From: Chryseobacterium gleum
Lineage (GTDB): Bacteria > Bacteroidota > Bacteroidia > Flavobacteriales_D > Sanyastnellaceae
DNA length: 64,000 nucleotides
Reading direction: 5' to 3'
Assembly (NCBI GenBank): GCA_945881835.1
Contig: CAMCVP010000004.1
Span: forward strand, 95,813-159,812
Shown here: in pieces, positions 18,607 through 61,409 of the stretch
Layout: every line of letters begins with the position of its first letter
Numbering within the stretch: the first letter of the stretch is position 1
Position numbers and translations under genes: made by a program
Notes under the pieces: generated by a model
What the model saw: the letters and a program-made list of their open reading frames with translations, nothing else
The model's database searches: none
Told to the model about the DNA's origin: nothing

Positions 18607-19644
18607 ATGTCGAAATATTTAATCGTAGGACAAGGGCTAGCAGGAACACTGCTAGCCTTTTCTCTTCTTGAAAAAGGAGAAGAAGTTTTAATTGCCGACG
18701 ATTATAAGCATGCCTCTGCTTCACAAGTAGCAGCGGGTATGTGGAATCCGGTTACCTTCAAAAGACTTGCTGCGTCTTGGTTAGCGAAGGAAATGCTTGA
18801 AGAGATGAATCTGACTTTTCGAAAGTTGGAAGATCAACTTCAAACGAAGTTTTTTCATACGCTTCCAGTTGCTAGAATTTTCAATTCAATTCAAGATGCT
18901 AATTTTTGGGATGAAAAATCGGATCATCCTGAAGTTGGGCGATACCTTTCCGCACGCTCAAATAAAAGCATTCAAGAAAATTTCAATTCTCCATTTGGAA
19001 ATAGCGAGGTCAATGAATGCGGCTGGTTGAATGTTCCCTTGTTCCGCGAAGCTGCAAGAAATTATTTCCTTCAGCATGGAAATTTTATCCAAGATTCTGT
19101 GGAAGAAAGCGATATTCAGTTTCATGAAAGTGGACTTCGTTGGAAGGAAATGGCGTTCGATAAAGTTATTCTGTGCACAGGTATAGGGGTTAATAAATGG
19201 AACGGATTGCAAGATTTGGATCTTATTCCGAATCACGGACAAGTGTTGGACTTGCACATTGAAGATTTGGATTTGGATGTGATTGCTAATTTCGGTCAGT
19301 TTTTACTTCCCTATGGAAATGGAAAATTCCGTTTAGGCGCGACCTACGATTGGAATGAAGTACCTGACGAGCCGACCAAAGAGGCCTGTGAGTTTTTACT
19401 TTCGGAATTGAAGTTGCGCTTGAATAAGGACGTTGTGATTGAAAGTCAAAAGACGGGTTATCGTCCTACAACCCGCGATAGAAGACCACTTTTGGGATTT
19501 GCCAAGGGAAACAATAATCTTGCAGTTTTTGGTGGGTTGGGTTCAAAAGGAGTTCTTCTTGCACCATATTTCGCGCAATTATTTACGGCGGTGTTAACCG
19601 AAGGTGTCGCTATTCCTAAAGAAGTAAATTCCTTGCGATTCTAA
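18607..19644 (+). CDS. FAD-dependent oxidoreductase (DAO family)
   Basis: 345 aa; YLIVGQGLAGTLLAFSLLEKG; C-terminal GYRPTTRDRRPLLG and FGGLGSKGVLLAP. Confidence 0.85.
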   Translation: MSKYLIVGQGLAGTLLAFSLLEKGEEVLIADDYKHASASQVAAGMWNPVTFKRLAASWLAKEMLEEMNLTFRKLEDQLQTKFFHTLPVARIFNSIQDANFWDEKSDHPEVGRYLSARSNKSIQENFNSPFGNSEVNECGWLNVPLFREAARNYFLQHGNFIQDSVEESDIQFHESGLRWKEMAFDKVILCTGIGVNKWNGLQDLDLIPNHGQVLDLHIEDLDLDVIANFGQFLLPYGNGKFRLGATYDWNEVPDEPTKEACEFLLSELKLRLNKDVVIESQKTGYRPTTRDRRPLLGFAKGNNNLAVFGGLGSKGVLLAPYFAQLFTAVLTEGVAIPKEVNSLRF

Positions 19645-19699
19645 CAACTCAAGGTGAAGAACCTTTGATATTGAATTCAATTTATTCAATTAGTTCAGA

Positions 19700-19707
19700 T
19701 AGATTTG
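19700..19707 (+). promoter_or_regulatory. Candidate -7 box TAGATTTG for the YfiR operon
   Basis: Perfect TAnnTTTG, about 25 bp 5' of the ATG at 19732; no well-spaced -33. Confidence 0.35.
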
Positions 19708-19731
19708 TTATGCGCCTCAAAAGTGCACAGA

Positions 19732-20250
19732 ATGAAACGAATCTATTTACTTCTCTTGCTATTGGCGTCGAGCCATTGGATATTTGCACAGCAGATTGAC
19801 GAAGGTGACTCGCGCGCAATGATTCAAGCAAACTTCATTTATCAATTTGCAGTGAATAGCAACTGGCCTTTAGAAATGAAGAAGGGAAAATTTCTAATCG
19901 TAGTATATGGTAACGATGCAGTGTACAAGCATGTCTTGGAGAAATATGGAATGAAGCCAGTCGGCGCACAAACCATTGAAGTGCAGTCTTGGAGTGATTA
20001 TAAGCCGGGTGTTGGAAGTCAAATTGTTTTCGTCGATAAATCGAAAAAAGCGGATTTCGCTAAAGTTATAAAAGAGGTGAAGGGAAAGAGCACTCTCGTT
20101 GTCACGAATTGGGAAGGGGCTTTGGGCAGTGGAGCAGCCATTAATTTTAAATCAGTAGACAATTCTATTCGATATGAATTGAGTGAGGCGGCTTTATTGG
20201 AGAAGAAGATCACTCCAGGGAATAAAATTTTACAATGGAAAGTTCAATAG
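19732..20250 (+). CDS. YfiR family (DUF4154) periplasmic protein
   Basis: Signal peptide MKRIYLLLLLLASSHWIFA; IYQFAVNSNWP, STLVVTNWEGALGSGAAINF. Confidence 0.75.
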   Translation: MKRIYLLLLLLASSHWIFAQQIDEGDSRAMIQANFIYQFAVNSNWPLEMKKGKFLIVVYGNDAVYKHVLEKYGMKPVGAQTIEVQSWSDYKPGVGSQIVFVDKSKKADFAKVIKEVKGKSTLVVTNWEGALGSGAAINFKSVDNSIRYELSEAALLEKKITPGNKILQWKVQ

Positions 20251-54566: not shown

Positions 54567-57344
54567 ATGCAAACAAATTCAGAAGAACTTTTTTTAAAGC
54601 GAATAGCGCAAGAATTAATTGACAAACACGGGAAAGATTTACATCGTATTTTGGTGGTCTTGCCGAGTAATCGCTCGAAAGTTTTTTTGAAGAAATTTCT
54701 CTTCGAAATTTTGGGTTCGGCCTTTTTAACGCCGCAGTTGGTCTTGCTTCCACAATTTGTTAAATCTGTTGTAAAGGAAAGAACCGAAGAGAAATTGAGT
54801 TTACTTCTTCTGCTTTATCGCGCCTACACGGAAGTCGTTGAATCTCCCGATTCATTCGAAGTATTCATGAAGTGGGGAAGTATGGCGCTCGATGACTTCA
54901 ACGACATAGATGTCGCGCTGGCCAATCCGGGCGAGGTATTCAAGAATTTAAAGGATGTAAAGGATATTGAGAATTGGAGTTTCGGTATTCAACCGCTAAC
55001 CGATGCGCAAGAAGATTACGCCGACTTTTGGCTCGATCTCGGAAAGGTTTATCATCGCTTTGTTGAATTGCAGAACGAGCAGCACGCATACAGTTACGCT
55101 CGCTTGAACAGAGCCATGGCAGAGGAAAAGGTGAAAGTGAATTTTCCTTCGAATGCAGATGCCGTTTATTTTGTGGGAATCACAGCGTTTTCAAAAGCGG
55201 AAGAGAAGTGGATCATGCGATTGCATAAAACAGGTAAAGTGTTTTTTCATTTCGATGCAGACGCTTATTACGTTAACAACCCCATTCACGAAGCCGGAAT
55301 TTTCTTCCGTTCGTGGGAAGAAAGAAGAATGCCTATTGCGAAATCAGACGACTTCAACACACGCTCACGAACCATAACTTTTTCGAAGGTGGTTACTCCG
55401 TTGGCTTCGGCCTTCGCCGCATCGAAACTGGTTAACGAAATGAAAGAAGAAGATCGCGCGAATACAGCTGTGGTCTTGGTTCAACCGTTTTTACTTCGTC
55501 CGTTTTTAAATGGGCTGTCCATAGACTCTCCTGTGAATGTCGCTTTGGGTTACCCCATTGATCAGGTGTCGTTGTTCCGTGTAGTTCGCATGCTCCTACG
55601 CATGTGGAGTCGCTTATCGAAGGAAGTGAAAAAGGGCATGTATTACAAAGACTTTTCGCAATGGATTCTTCAAACCGATTTAGACGTGCTTCTTTCTTCT
55701 TCGCAACGAAGAGAAATTCAGCGATACGTCATGCGCCGAAAATTCATTTACATCCGTGAAAGGGAATTGAAAGAGTTGGTCGAAAAACTTCCTGCAATGA
55801 AAGTGTTGGAAGATCTGCTTACCATAGAGAATTTCAATTTACCCAATTGTATTTCTCGGTTGAAGGTTTTCCTTTCGGTGTATGTGGAATCGGATCATAC
55901 CGATGAGTTGACGAAGGAAACAGCCTTACGACTTCAGCAAATTTTAGGACGCATTGAAATGCATATGGAAGCAAATGCATTTTTGAATGAAGTGCCTTTG
56001 CTCGATTTGTTGTTTCAACATTACGCTTCGCAGGAGACCATTGCATTTCAAGGAGAGCCATTGGAAGGATTGCAAGTATTGAGCATGGTTGAGACGCGCG
56101 CGGTTGATTTTAAACACGTCATTATTGTTGGTGCCAATGATGAGCAGTTTCCTGGAAATGGAAGAGCACAGTCTCTCATTCCTTTTGATCTGCGCAAAGC
56201 ATTTGAGTTGCCTTCGCCTGAAGAGCGCGAGGGAACCATTGCTTATTCATTCTATCGCTTACTGCAGCGCGCTGAGGACGTTCGTTTGTTGCATCACACG
56301 TTGAGTTCAGATTACAAGATGACAGAGCCTTCGCGCTACCTGATGCAAATAGAACAAGAGCTAACAGGATACGGAAACCGAACGATCGTTCGGCATGAAG
56401 ATTTCGAACACAGCAACAAATTTTTACAAACTGGAGAAGAAGAAATTGAGGCGAATGATTTTTCAACGCAGCGTATTCATGATTTAATGGCCTATGGAAT
56501 TTCACCGTCGGCAATCAATAAGTTCATGCGCTGTCCGCTCGATTTCTATTATCGCTATGTGGTTGGTCTTGGAGAAGTCGAAAGCCTGGAAGAGAACATG
56601 GAGGCTTCGACCTTCGGGTCCATTGTTCACGATGTGTTAGAGACCTTGTACAAGCGTTATGTTGGAAGGACCATGTACGATGAAGATTTCAATGGATTTA
56701 AGTTGGAGTTAGATACGTTAATAGATGAAGCCATTCATCGTCTGTATAACTCAAATTTTGAATTGGCCGGATTCGATATCATCATGCGTCGTATAGTGAA
56801 GCGTATGATTGAAGTGGTTTTGGAACACGATCAAGGGCAATTTAACAAAGCTCGTGAAAACGGTGAAGAACGCTTGGTGAATGGGGTAGAGGTGGAACTT
56901 ATTGCAGATTTGCCCATGGAGAAGATTGGAGCGGATATTCCTGCACGCGTTCGCGGAAAAGCCGATCGTGTAGACGAGCAGTCGGGTAACTTTATGGTTC
57001 TCGACTACAAAACAGGAAGTGTGAAGTCTGACGAGTTGAAGTTGAGTGAAAAGGAAGGACATTGGTTGAAAGATACCAAACCGAAACTGCTTCAGATTTT
57101 GACCTATTCATACATGTGGGTGAAAGACGGACATGCACCTGAGAATACTAAAGCCATGTTGTTCGGATTGAAGCAGGCAAAGCAGGGACCTGTTTCGCTT
57201 ATGCGCGGAGATGACCCTGCGGAATTGCGAGAAGCAGATGTCGACAAGTTCGAAGAGGAATTGTTAGGAGTGTTGAAGAGTTTGTTAGAAACGCAAGTAT
57301 TTAGACACAATCCGGAATCGGAATATTGCGAATTTTGCAAGTAG
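54567..57344 (+). CDS. PD-(D/E)XK nuclease family protein (AddB-like)
   Basis: 925 aa; SAINKFMRCPLDFYYRYVVGL, FGSIVHDVLETLY, FMVLDYKTG, C-terminal YCEFCK. Confidence 0.88.
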   Translation: MQTNSEELFLKRIAQELIDKHGKDLHRILVVLPSNRSKVFLKKFLFEILGSAFLTPQLVLLPQFVKSVVKERTEEKLSLLLLLYRAYTEVVESPDSFEVFMKWGSMALDDFNDIDVALANPGEVFKNLKDVKDIENWSFGIQPLTDAQEDYADFWLDLGKVYHRFVELQNEQHAYSYARLNRAMAEEKVKVNFPSNADAVYFVGITAFSKAEEKWIMRLHKTGKVFFHFDADAYYVNNPIHEAGIFFRSWEERRMPIAKSDDFNTRSRTITFSKVVTPLASAFAASKLVNEMKEEDRANTAVVLVQPFLLRPFLNGLSIDSPVNVALGYPIDQVSLFRVVRMLLRMWSRLSKEVKKGMYYKDFSQWILQTDLDVLLSSSQRREIQRYVMRRKFIYIRERELKELVEKLPAMKVLEDLLTIENFNLPNCISRLKVFLSVYVESDHTDELTKETALRLQQILGRIEMHMEANAFLNEVPLLDLLFQHYASQETIAFQGEPLEGLQVLSMVETRAVDFKHVIIVGANDEQFPGNGRAQSLIPFDLRKAFELPSPEEREGTIAYSFYRLLQRAEDVRLLHHTLSSDYKMTEPSRYLMQIEQELTGYGNRTIVRHEDFEHSNKFLQTGEEEIEANDFSTQRIHDLMAYGISPSAINKFMRCPLDFYYRYVVGLGEVESLEENMEASTFGSIVHDVLETLYKRYVGRTMYDEDFNGFKLELDTLIDEAIHRLYNSNFELAGFDIIMRRIVKRMIEVVLEHDQGQFNKARENGEERLVNGVEVELIADLPMEKIGADIPARVRGKADRVDEQSGNFMVLDYKTGSVKSDELKLSEKEGHWLKDTKPKLLQILTYSYMWVKDGHAPENTKAMLFGLKQAKQGPVSLMRGDDPAELREADVDKFEEELLGVLKSLLETQVFRHNPESEYCEFCK

Positions 57345-58627
57345 TGAAGAAGCGCGTATTAATCATAGCCTATTATTGGCCTCCCGCAGGTGGAGGAGGG
57401 GTTCAACGTTGGTTGAAGTTTGTGAAGTATTTACACAACAGCGATTGGCAGCCCGTGGTGTTTGTTCCAGAGAATGCCGACTATCCGGTGTATGATGAAA
57501 CGTTATTGTCTGAAATTCCAGAAGGAGTGGAAGTCATTCGCTGTCCTATTTTCGAACCCTATCGCGCATTGCGCAAAGCAACAGGAAAGGGCGATGCGGG
57601 AATAAGCGCAGGATTCATTCGAAGCGAAAAGGGACCTTCATTCATGGAGCGATTAATGGCGTGGGTTCGTGGAAATATTTTGATTCCAGATGCGCGCATG
57701 TTTTGGATTCGTCCGGCCTCAAATTTCTTGTTGAAGTATTTGAAGGAGAATCCGGTTGACATGATTGTGAGCACTGGGCCTCCGCACAGCATGCATTTGA
57801 TTGCGCGTCGTGTTCACCGAAAGACAGGTGTTTCGTGGTTAGCCGATTTCAGAGATCCGTGGGTAAACATGGACAACGCCGATAAGTTTCAGATGAGTGC
57901 TTGGGCGAAGCGCAGGCACATGAAGTTAGAGCGCAGCGTGTTGAAGGAAGCCACTGTTGTCGATACAGTGAGTTGGTATTTGAGCAGTGAGTATGAGAAG
58001 ATCCGCGGAGGTGAAGTAAAGGTGTTAACGAACGGATTCGATCACGTAGATTTTGAAGGAAGGGAAGTGAAGCCAACCGATAAGTTCATTCTTGGCCATT
58101 ACGGCACCTTTGGCGACGATCGTAATGCGCCGGCCTTGTGGCGAGCCTTGTCGCGTTTGGCGGAGGAAAGTGAAGAATTTAAAAACCGAATGATTATTCG
58201 GTTGGTTGGTCCAACAGACGGTTCTGTTTTAGAAGACGTCAAGCGCAACGGACTCTCAGAACATTTGGAATACATCCCATACGTGAAGCACAACGAGGTT
58301 TTAGATCTCATGTTAACCCCTCAATTGTTGTTGGTTATTTTGAATCAGAATGCCAACGAAGAAGGACGTGTTACCGGGAAAATATTTGAGTATGTCGCTA
58401 CGGGCAATCGCGTGCTCGGCATAGGCAGTGTTACCAGCGATTGCGCGCGTGTCATTCATGAAAGCGAGAGCGGCGAAATGATTGCCTTCAACAATGAAGA
58501 ACAACTATACACCTTCATCAAGAACGCATTTCCTTGTTCGCTTAATCAACCTTTGAATCCAAGGGTGATGAAGTATTCGCGTCAGTCTTTGACTGATGCT
58601 CTTCGAGACATTATTCATCTTCGATGA
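57326..58627 (+). CDS. Glycosyltransferase
   Basis: YYWPPAGGGGVQRWLKFVKYL, WLADFRDPWVNMDN, KIFEYVATGNRVLGIG; GTG at 57344 is an alternative start overlapping the upstream stop. Confidence 0.82.
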   Translation: MRILQVVKKRVLIIAYYWPPAGGGGVQRWLKFVKYLHNSDWQPVVFVPENADYPVYDETLLSEIPEGVEVIRCPIFEPYRALRKATGKGDAGISAGFIRSEKGPSFMERLMAWVRGNILIPDARMFWIRPASNFLLKYLKENPVDMIVSTGPPHSMHLIARRVHRKTGVSWLADFRDPWVNMDNADKFQMSAWAKRRHMKLERSVLKEATVVDTVSWYLSSEYEKIRGGEVKVLTNGFDHVDFEGREVKPTDKFILGHYGTFGDDRNAPALWRALSRLAEESEEFKNRMIIRLVGPTDGSVLEDVKRNGLSEHLEYIPYVKHNEVLDLMLTPQLLLVILNQNANEEGRVTGKIFEYVATGNRVLGIGSVTSDCARVIHESESGEMIAFNNEEQLYTFIKNAFPCSLNQPLNPRVMKYSRQSLTDALRDIIHLR

Positions 58628-58811
58628 TCAATCTGACTTTGTCAGATCAATTGCTCCGCAATCAATCACCTTCGGTGATCAATTCTTCGAATCAATCTTT
58701 CAGATCAATCGCGTTGCGATCAAACCTTCGGTGAAATAGCAACGCAGTTCCAACAACGGAGTTCCAATTACGAAGTAGGAATAAAATCTTCGATTTTCCA
58801 ATAACGAAGTT
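58582..58811. repeat. Variable-stem triloop micro-hairpin array
   Basis: Series of perfect short hairpins with 3-nt loops separated by ATCAAT, then by TTCCAA(C/T)-type separators; see findings. Confidence 0.75.
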
Positions 58812-59020: not shown

Positions 59021-59365
59021 ATGAATGAGGCGAAAAAGAGAGTAATAATCTTTTACCGAGATTATTTCTCAAACTTTTATCTGAAACAAAGACAGAAAGT
59101 AAAGGATAAAATTTTATGGACCTTCCGGATAATTGAAACTCATGAAGTAATACCGAATGAATATTTCAAGTACCTCGATAGTTCAGATGGAATATTTGAA
59201 ATTAGAGTAAGTCAAGGCAATGATATATTTCGTGTTTTCTGCTTTTTCGATAAAGGACATCTGATTGTATTGGCGAATGGATTCCAGAAGAAAAGTCAGA
59301 AAACACCAAGAACAGAAATTCAAAAGGCAATCGCAATTAAAAAATCATATGAAAACGAAGACTAA
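59021..59365 (+). CDS. RelE/HigB-type toxin (phage Gp49-like)
   Basis: About 114 aa; YLDSSDGIFEIRVSQGNDIFRVFCFFDKGHLIVLANGFQKKSQKTPRTEIQKA; followed by an overlapping XRE gene. Confidence 0.88.
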   Translation: MNEAKKRVIIFYRDYFSNFYLKQRQKVKDKILWTFRIIETHEVIPNEYFKYLDSSDGIFEIRVSQGNDIFRVFCFFDKGHLIVLANGFQKKSQKTPRTEIQKAIAIKKSYENED

Positions 59366-59651
59366 TACCAAGACACTCGATCAATTCGTTGAAGAACAAT
59401 ATGGCAAAAGAGGGACGAAGAAGCGAGAGAAATTTGAAAAGGGATATGAGAGCTTTAAAATTGGGGTTCTTATTCAGCAGGCGCGCTTAGAAAAAGGATT
59501 AACGCAAGACGAGTTAGCCATTCGTTGCGGCACAAACAAAGGTTATATTTCAAAAATAGAAAACGACATCAAAGAAGTCCGCTTATCAACCTTGCAACGT
59601 ATTGTAGAAATTGGATTGGGAGGTAAGCTTAATTTGTCAATTCAACTTTAA
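59349..59651 (+). CDS. XRE-family HTH antitoxin (HigA-type)
   Basis: IGVLIQQARLEKGLTQDELAIRCGTNKGYISKIENDIKEVRLSTLQRIVEIGL; overlaps the toxin 3' end. Confidence 0.9.
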   Translation: MKTKTNTKTLDQFVEEQYGKRGTKKREKFEKGYESFKIGVLIQQARLEKGLTQDELAIRCGTNKGYISKIENDIKEVRLSTLQRIVEIGLGGKLNLSIQL

Positions 59652-59690
59652 TCAACGGAATTGATCATCGAAGATGATTGATCCGCAGGA
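59652..59690. repeat. Micro-hairpin array, inverted relative to 58582-58811
   Basis: ATCATC-GAA-GATGAT TG ATCC-GCA-GGAT, preceded by an imperfect ATCAAC-GGA-ATTGAT. Confidence 0.6.
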
Positions 59691-59696
59691 TTTAAT

Positions 59697-61313
59697 CTAC
59701 TTTCTAGTAGGCGTTCCCTCCAAGAACTTAACCATCTTGCCGTTCTCGTAAATGCCACGCTGAAGCAGCTTGCCCGATTTCTTGTCGTACATGGTGCATT
59801 CGCCGTGGTAACGGTTGTTCTTGTAATTCGCGTCTTCTTCCAACATTCCTTTCTCGGTATAGATTTTACTCGGTCCGTTTAGTTCGCCATTCTCATAGGT
59901 GCAATCGCGCCATAAGCCACCGAAGTCGTAGTAGTATTTCCAACGTCCTGTGCGCTTACCCAATTTAAATTTTCCTTCGCTAATGGGTCTGCCACTTTCG
60001 TTGTACAAAATGGAAGTGCCATTCAATTCGCCATTCTTTCCGTAAGTAATCACACTCTCCAATTGTCCTCGTTCAGAATAGTTCATCCATTTACCCACCT
60101 TCTGATTGTCTTTCCAACTTCCAATGTACAAATACCTTCCGTTCTTTGGCTCATAGCCAATCCACTTGCCATACATCTTGCCCGCCTTGAAACTTCCTTC
60201 GTCTTTCACTTTTCCGTTCTCATACCAGCTCATCCACTTGCCATCTTCTTCTCCCAATTTGTAATTTCCTTTCTGCAACAATCCGCCGTCTTCATACCAC
60301 GTGCTCCATTCACCTTCCTTGTTATCGGCCACGAAATTTCCTTCCTTCCATTTCTTTTCGCTCGGGTATTGATACACCCAATTTCCTTCCATTTTCCCAC
60401 TAGCGTATTTTCCCTTCGATTGCCACACACCATTATCATGATAGAAAATCCAATCGCCATCTTGAAGGTCTTCCACGAAATTTCCTTCCATGTCTTTCAC
60501 ACCGTTTTCACGATACCATTCCCAATTTCCGGTCTTCTTTCCGTTGTCGAAAGTTCCTTTTACATACAACTTCCCATTATCAAAATACTCTTCGTAAGGC
60601 CCTGTTACCAAGCCTTCCGAATAAGTGGTTGTTTTCCGAAGCTTTCCGTTGCTAAAGAATTCACTCCACTTTCCGTCTTTAATTCCTTTCAGATACTGAC
60701 CCGAAGTTTGAATGTTTCCTTTCGAGAAAAAGGCTTCGAAAATTCCGTCAGGAACTCCGTTCGAATATGTTGTTCTACTCAATAATTTGTCATCTTCATT
60801 TACTTCTGGAAGTACACCTGTTCCGTTCGTTATCGTTTGAATTCCTTTCTTGTCGAAATAGGAAATGAGCAGCACACTCGAGGTGTCATACTTCAAAACA
60901 CTGTTCAATTTTCCATTGTCGTAATAGGCACTCCACTCTCCGGTTTTCTTCCCCTTGAAGAAATTTCCTTCTTGTATTTTAATTCCTTTCTCGTTGAAGG
61001 TGCGCTGCACGCTGTCTTCCACCCCGAATTTGAAATACCCTTCCACCTGCAATTTTCCAGTCGTGTGATAGCGAAATACTTTTCCGTTGAAGTAACCGTT
61101 ACGGTAGGTGCTCTCTTCCTGAAGCGTTCCGTCTTCATAATAAAATTTCCAGATACTGTCTTCCTTTCCAACTACATTGAATTTCCCAATGCTGCGAATT
61201 TTTCCATTCGGATAAAGGTCTTTGTACATTTTCTGTGCATTTCCGTTCAACGAAAACAGACATGCGAATACTACGATAAAGATGGGCGCTAGGCGAAAGA
61301 GAGTCTTCTTCAT
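59697..61313 (-). CDS. MORN-variant (YwqK-like) repeat protein
   Basis: Many repeats of the type YxNGKxxxxGxFxxGKxxGxW; signal peptide; start corrected from 61379. Confidence 0.85.
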   Translation of the reverse strand: MKKTLFRLAPIFIVVFACLFSLNGNAQKMYKDLYPNGKIRSIGKFNVVGKEDSIWKFYYEDGTLQEESTYRNGYFNGKVFRYHTTGKLQVEGYFKFGVEDSVQRTFNEKGIKIQEGNFFKGKKTGEWSAYYDNGKLNSVLKYDTSSVLLISYFDKKGIQTITNGTGVLPEVNEDDKLLSRTTYSNGVPDGIFEAFFSKGNIQTSGQYLKGIKDGKWSEFFSNGKLRKTTTYSEGLVTGPYEEYFDNGKLYVKGTFDNGKKTGNWEWYRENGVKDMEGNFVEDLQDGDWIFYHDNGVWQSKGKYASGKMEGNWVYQYPSEKKWKEGNFVADNKEGEWSTWYEDGGLLQKGNYKLGEEDGKWMSWYENGKVKDEGSFKAGKMYGKWIGYEPKNGRYLYIGSWKDNQKVGKWMNYSERGQLESVITYGKNGELNGTSILYNESGRPISEGKFKLGKRTGRWKYYYDFGGLWRDCTYENGELNGPSKIYTEKGMLEEDANYKNNRYHGECTMYDKKSGKLLQRGIYENGKMVKFLEGTPTRK

Positions 61314-61409
61314 GGTTCGAAAATAATCGGTACTGTCGAATGTAAAACACCAAAGAACCTGTTTTATTGAACATCGCAAGTCTTATATTTGAACACTAAA
61401 CCTTTTGAA

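Follow-up and report, generated by a model that had tools for sequence, protein, structure and literature searches.

A hairpin array overlaps a gene end at a convergent junction

The window, the 64-kb stretch of DNA analyzed here, contains a dense series of short hairpins at 58582-58811 that begins within a gene and runs on into the gap behind it (Table 1). The last codons of the upstream glycosyltransferase gene, which has orthologues in the related genomes G001-G006, are made of the first three hairpins of the array, and the ATCAAT linkers begin only after its stop at 58627. The convergent gene downstream, with orthologues in G001-G007, bounds the ancestral junction on its far side. Between the two halves of the array sits a toxin-antitoxin-like gene pair that is missing from the orthologous junction in relatives, where the gap measures only 8-149 bp. 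An earlier note on this DNA had overlooked this inverted two-half layout. The hairpins that it listed are all present, with small corrections only: the third unit has a 5-bp stem, TCATC-TTC-GATGA (58615-58627), and the first three units are intragenic.

Table 1 Features of the window junction and REP-like palindromes at other loci.
Feature	Position	Strand	Basis or content
Upstream gene, family-4-type glycosyltransferase	57326..58627	+	ORF; Pfam Glyco_trans_4_4 E=9e-8
Array units in glycosyltransferase 3' coding end	58582..58627	.	TCAGTC-TTT-GACTGA, CTC-TTC-GAG, TCATC-TTC-GATGA
Dialect A left half	58631..58732	.	ATCTGAC-TTT, ATTGC-TCC, ATCACC-TTC, ATTC-TTC, ATCT-TTC, ATCGC-GTT, ACC-TTC; CA-joined (linker ATCAAT)
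Dialect B right half	58741..58811	.	AAC-GCA-GTT, AAC-GGA-GTT, TAC-GAA-GTA, AAAATC-TTC-GATTTT, AAC-GAA-GTT; linkers CCAAC/CCAAT/GGAAT
Toxin-antitoxin-like pair, Gp49/DUF891 + HTH_3	59021..59651	+	Pfam PF05973 E=2e-20, PF01381 E=1e-10
Dialect A right-half remnant	59664..59691	.	ATCATC-GAA-GATGAT TG ATCC-GCA-GGAT
Convergent downstream gene, MORN-repeat-like by eye	59697..61379	-	ORF
REP-like palindromes	L012:3780-4560; L023:3990-4125; L178; L058

The summed hairpin score of 58582-58811 was 43.5, compared with 7.9 ± 3.5 (maximum 20.5) in 2000 dinucleotide-preserving shuffles, which confirms that the array is real. Stems of at least 4 bp numbered nine in this stretch, against a mean of 1.4 and a maximum of 7 in the same number of such shuffles. 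The array is also by far the top-scoring place of the window (42, versus 24 for the second best).

Arrays recur across the genome in dialects that share a loop rule and a polarity

Used as a query, the window array returned 84 matches in its own genome (G000), and arrays are present in seven of the eight sampled congeners (G001-G006 and G008). A lack of other arrays in the genome or in close relatives was what the earlier note had set as a refuting test, and the matches leave its observation unrefuted. The architecture that it described, in which perfect stems and triloops are joined by a constant linker, is confirmed and recurs throughout the genome. G000 uses at least four dialects that differ in their linker: ATCAAT/ATTGAT (A), CCAAT/GGAAT (B), GAAT (C) and ATGA/TCAT (D), together with one CAAA-linked run. 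Dialect C and D queries gave 25 and 24 matches in this genome, respectively, some of them at shared places. Within 274 kb around the array places of G000, we found 57 runs comprising 391 hairpins; a Markov control covering 210 kb of the 274 kb yielded 0.8 runs per replicate.

Each unit is a perfect stem of 3-7 bp, mostly closed by a C-G pair (318 of 391 units). Units are 9-17 nt long, and an array holds up to 17 of them. The stems are drawn from a small lexicon (ATCAC, ATTGC, ATCTGAC, ATCACC, ATTC, ATCT, ATCGC, TAC, AAC and AAAATC). TAC, AAC and AAAATC are the stems of dialect B, GTC, GCC and GTTGC those of dialect C, and the words in the dialect A left half of the window array are found again in other arrays of the genome. 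The loop reads GNA on one strand (GNA/TNC, N being any base) in 299 of the 391 units, a proportion partly built in because our definition of a run demanded half GNA/TNC loops. Among stems of at least 5 bp, such loops make up 135 of 196 inside arrays versus 87 of 436 outside. The loop had been described as constant; we find instead a C-GNA-G rule with N free, and at orthologous sites of close species the loop is the variable part.

The arrays are polar about a center, with TNC-loop units on the left and GNA-loop units on the right in 66 arrays and the reverse in 6. The linker ATCAAT lies ahead of its reverse complement, ATTGAT, in all 516 ordered within-run pairs, and the corresponding order for dialect D is 6:0, a small number. 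These within-run counts cover dialects A and D; reading of annotated arrays showed that dialects B and D obey the same polarity rule as A. The reverse complement maps a TNC-then-GNA order onto itself, and thus both strands read alike, which gives a full array two-fold symmetry. Owing to this symmetry, a strand preference of arrays relative to genes is unreadable. At two places (L032:1774-2060 and L197:4080-4466), dialect B has expanded into a 48-bp tandem repeat, which suggests local slippage of groups of units.

The array family is specific to one genus

No arrays were found by sequence in any other genome among 299 sampled in the order, and a sequence-independent structure scan that covered 920 kb of other genera and other families likewise found none (Markov control, zero). 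The congener G007 has no arrays either, including in a structure scan of 120 kb. When the dialect B pattern was compared with 85,488 species genomes, it matched only metagenome-assembled genomes (MAGs) titled Flavobacteriales, Bacteroidetes or Chryseobacterium gleum. These come from several independent projects, which makes an assembly artefact unlikely, and their isolate names point to lakes. Records titled Chryseobacterium gleum that carry the arrays of this genus include L117, L118, L120, L130, L138, L150, L154 and L155, and on array-bearing MAG records this label is probably wrong. A sequence search of plasmids and viral contigs returned nothing, Rfam gave 0 matches at E<=1, and we found no published family with such an architecture in the open-access literature. 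The family is specific to a genus of lake Flavobacteriales, and its architecture, rather than an established function, is what is new. A different type of repeat, made of ACTAGTC-type tandem units, occupies each end of one contig (L111:1-270 and 19519-19800) in G019, a genome from another genus of the family.

Array sites persist while dialects switch

The genes that flank the window junction are orthologous across the genus. At this junction, G007 lacks an array and the minimal gap of G005 holds two hairpins. Dialect C followed by B is found in G001 and G004, and A followed by B in G002 and G003. In G000, dialect A units lead into dialect B units, after which come the toxin-antitoxin-like pair and, beyond it, the dialect A remnant. 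The first hairpin, TCAGTC-TTT-GACTGA, is kept in G001, G004 and G005 and missing in G007, while B-type units are also present at this locus in G001-G004. Dialects have been replaced elsewhere too, with B in G000 and A in relatives at three loci, and D versus A at one. Array units are gained and lost at orthologous junctions, and sites are retained while the dialect switches.

In the two longest syntenic array pairs of G000 and G001, whose flanking genes differ by 7-10%, we found changes at 0 of 212 stem sites, 0 of 50 linker sites and 11 of 63 loop sites. The chance of no change in 262 stem and linker sites at 7% divergence is 6e-9. Across all alignable pairs, differences affected 42% of loop centers, 20-24% of loop edges, 8% of stem positions and 8% of linker positions. 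Changed stem pairs were compensated in 482 cases and broken in 161, a comparison in which some broken pairs are hidden because hairpins were called by perfection in one sequence of each pair. Thus, the earlier claim that both stem arms change together is borne out, and the claim that they vary freely is not supported, as the stems belong to a small lexicon. Compensated counts alone are no proof of selection because units can be swapped whole; stronger evidence comes from the close pairs, in which stems show no substitutions. Uniform stems with mixed loops could also be explained by copying between arrays that share words.

Arrays lie close to gene ends and beside accessory genes

We compared array sites with other gaps longer than 80 bp, using a simple ORF caller. 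Convergent gaps were more frequent among array sites (31 of 64 versus 32 of 151 control gaps; Fisher p=1e-4) and U-tract terminators were less frequent at array-bearing gene ends (1 of 96 versus 17 of 169 others; p=0.004), and these p-values are optimistic because some loci in this multi-species set are orthologues of one another and hence not independent. In G000 alone, neither the convergent excess nor the terminator deficit was significant. Recognizable U-tract terminators are scarce throughout the analyzed gene ends (8-10%). Where a stop codon faced the array, it lay at a median distance of 12 bp; for a facing start codon, the median was 104 bp. About half of the array sites are non-convergent, and some lie in divergent gaps.

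Accessory genes found beside or between arrays include ORF6N, YhcG/DUF1016, Fic, HepT with a nucleotidyltransferase (MNT), AbiEii, KilA-N, a Gp49/HTH pair, a 23S-intervening-sequence protein and a Y1 transposase. Toxin-antitoxin-like or phage-regulator-like genes recur between array halves or adjoining arrays (window 59021-59651, L031:10367-12763, L010:4152-5018 and L023:7808-8794), and it looks as if the arrays were landing sites for accessory cassettes. Three contigs of G000 end beside a dialect B array, and in all three an identical short sequence comes after the array (L019:7427-7574, L030:1-140 and L034:1-75). This sequence encodes MKKTALRVQRIFSEDLRKEIVKQIELGQ where it is long enough, and is possibly an insertion sequence within the array.

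The arrays differ from known repeats, terminators and mini-hairpins

Like REP and BIME elements, the arrays are short palindromes at many intergenic places, often in inverted pairs and mainly 3' of genes or between convergent genes (PMC3733652). REP stems, however, have a conserved sequence of 20-40 bp with a GTAG/CGTC tag, whereas the arrays consist of 9-17 nt lexicon units that share no tag. No palindrome is common to all copies given the dialects and the many stem words, and the GTAG/CGTC foot is absent, the linkers being CA/TG, CCAAT/GGAAT, GAAT and ATGA/TCAT by reading. CRISPR is rejected because the units differ and there are no spacers of equal length. The earlier note's distinction of the array from REP, BIME and CRISPR is thus upheld. 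Its suggestion to search for a RAYT-like Y1 transposase led elsewhere: Y1 does not track the arrays, with PF01797 missing from array-bearing G002, G003, G005 and G008 (completeness 96% for G003 and 71-85% for the other three), and RAYT is rejected as their driver. The Y1 copy in L012 has longer REP-like hairpins of its own. Such palindromes (CCCCCAGC-TTT-GCTGGGGG, GCTCGC-TTT-GCGAGC and GGCATGGGT) lie on either side of the Y1 gene and are also dispersed between the micro-hairpin arrays; together with that gene they form a REP/RAYT-like system of a more classical kind within this genus.

Bidirectional intrinsic terminators also place symmetric hairpins between convergent genes and, in B. cereus, are reported to show compensatory changes (PMC5381666). 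The arrays differ from these in being tandem 3-7 bp triloop hairpins with a GNA loop rule that also occupy non-convergent sites. An intrinsic terminator with a G+C-rich stem and a direct U-tract is rejected, being found at a single one of the 96 array-bearing 3' ends. Hairpins maintained by template switching have perfect stems, coordinated arm changes and DNA-stable loops, as the arrays do (PMC8794818, PNAS 2022), but here close species share the stem sequence itself, and loop inversions occur at the chance level. The TAACTGA arrays of marine Beggiatoaceae likewise consist of many intergenic arrays of short units, and they are a single direct heptamer (PMC4679880). The arrays described here are instead a lexicon of hairpins.

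To our knowledge, GNA-triloop mini-hairpins are familiar as oligonucleotides and aptamer parts and not as a natural genomic repeat. At the level of sequence, the array units have the C-GNA-G triloop of this DNA mini-hairpin. Mini-hairpins such as d(GCGAAGC) belong to the same loop class, with a sheared G-A pair that is usually closed by C-G (Hirao 1994; Yoshizawa 1997), and C-GNA-G loops form extraordinarily stable, nuclease-resistant DNA mini-hairpins, as these studies are cited in PMC4686876. By nearest-neighbor energies, the 3-bp units are unstable as RNA (mean +2.3 kcal/mol); the DNA parameter file of ViennaRNA assigns one energy to every triloop, without a GNA bonus.

Discussion

Constraint acts on the arms and the linkers and, to a lesser degree, on G and A within the loop, so folding of a single strand probably matters. 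Symmetry of the layout, the position at gene ends and the convergent excess suggest an element that serves two converging transcription units. We therefore favor, with a probability of roughly 0.4 and on comparative sequence data, the reading that the arrays are structure-selected, bidirectional gene-end elements that would stop or protect transcripts from both sides and block read-through. Selection would then keep the hairpin series itself, and its symmetry would arise because two converging transcription units use the array, one per strand. As a two-way gene end, the array would stop or protect transcripts and block (antisense) read-through in place of a U-tract terminator, and turnover would occur through exchange of units at the constant linkers. 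Because U-tract terminators are rare everywhere in these genomes, the replacement of terminators is a weak part of this proposal, and placement at gene ends could merely reflect tolerance. The folding molecule may be RNA or single-stranded DNA, and the C-GNA-G loops favor DNA. GNA loops are a DNA specialty, and 3-bp stems are too weak as RNA; a role as RNA terminator is thus hard to see for dialect B, and action at the DNA level on either strand is possible. It is rather unlikely, in our estimate, that the arrays go further and represent an undescribed class of polar, two-fold-symmetric GNA-triloop arrays that act as single-stranded DNA, with interchangeable dialects read by fold and polarity and not by sequence, and that serve as chromosome-wide boundaries and in cassette docking.

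The strongest competing explanation is that the arrays are a mobile or recombining repeat whose presence at gene ends is tolerated, which we regard as a serious if somewhat doubtful alternative. The arrays would be selfish or neutral DNA that spreads and exchanges units by recombination or by a mobility system acting on single-stranded DNA, tolerated at the 3' ends of genes, and stems would be perfect since only well-folded copies move. Restriction to one genus, multiple copies, fast turnover, dialect switching and mosaic arrays all fit this explanation, as do the accessory genes that adjoin or separate arrays, and REPs show a similar gene-end distribution (PMC3733652). Yet in close species the resident stems and linkers lack substitutions while the loops drift, which looks like constraint and not decay; array sites are retained over several species, and no transposase, Y1 included, tracks them.

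A further reading takes the arrays as dyad-symmetric binding sites. In this view, the units are operators in duplex DNA whose halves are set apart by a 3-bp spacer, and a dimeric protein binds them in arrays, for instance to organize the nucleoid. Conserved stems and linkers around a free spacer, regular spacing and the constant ATCAAT linker would suit such operators, but the many stem words and multiple dialects within one genome would not, and C closure and a GNA bias in the spacer are unexpected for a duplex and fit a folded strand. We consider this improbable. Slightly less probable still is maintenance by mutation, in which GNA loops fold the nascent strand back and intrastrand template switching rewrites the arms without any need for selection. 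The process is documented for rRNA hairpins and favored by DNA-stable loops (PMC8794818), and the arms of the arrays do change together. It conserves pairing and not sequence, however, so that neutral compensated changes would be expected, yet none of the stem sites compared between G000 and G001 had changed. The interstrand form of the process predicts loop inversions, as does the earlier idea of a new inverted copy made around the loop; in place, we counted 14 flips in 32, against 14.6 expected by chance pairing. Template switching as the sole cause of the arrays is not supported.

Bacterial intergenic repeats are usually defined by a conserved sequence. The dialects described here instead have their fold, their loop rule and their polarity in common, and one sequence dialect takes the place of another at a given site. 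The system lends itself to direct testing, since a single gene junction holds different dialects, or hardly any array, in different related species. If the constraint acts on DNA mini-hairpins, the arrays would show the GNA triloop put to natural use on the scale of a chromosome; if it acts on RNA, they would be a new design of two-way gene end. In this genus, the arrays may mark and insulate gene ends.
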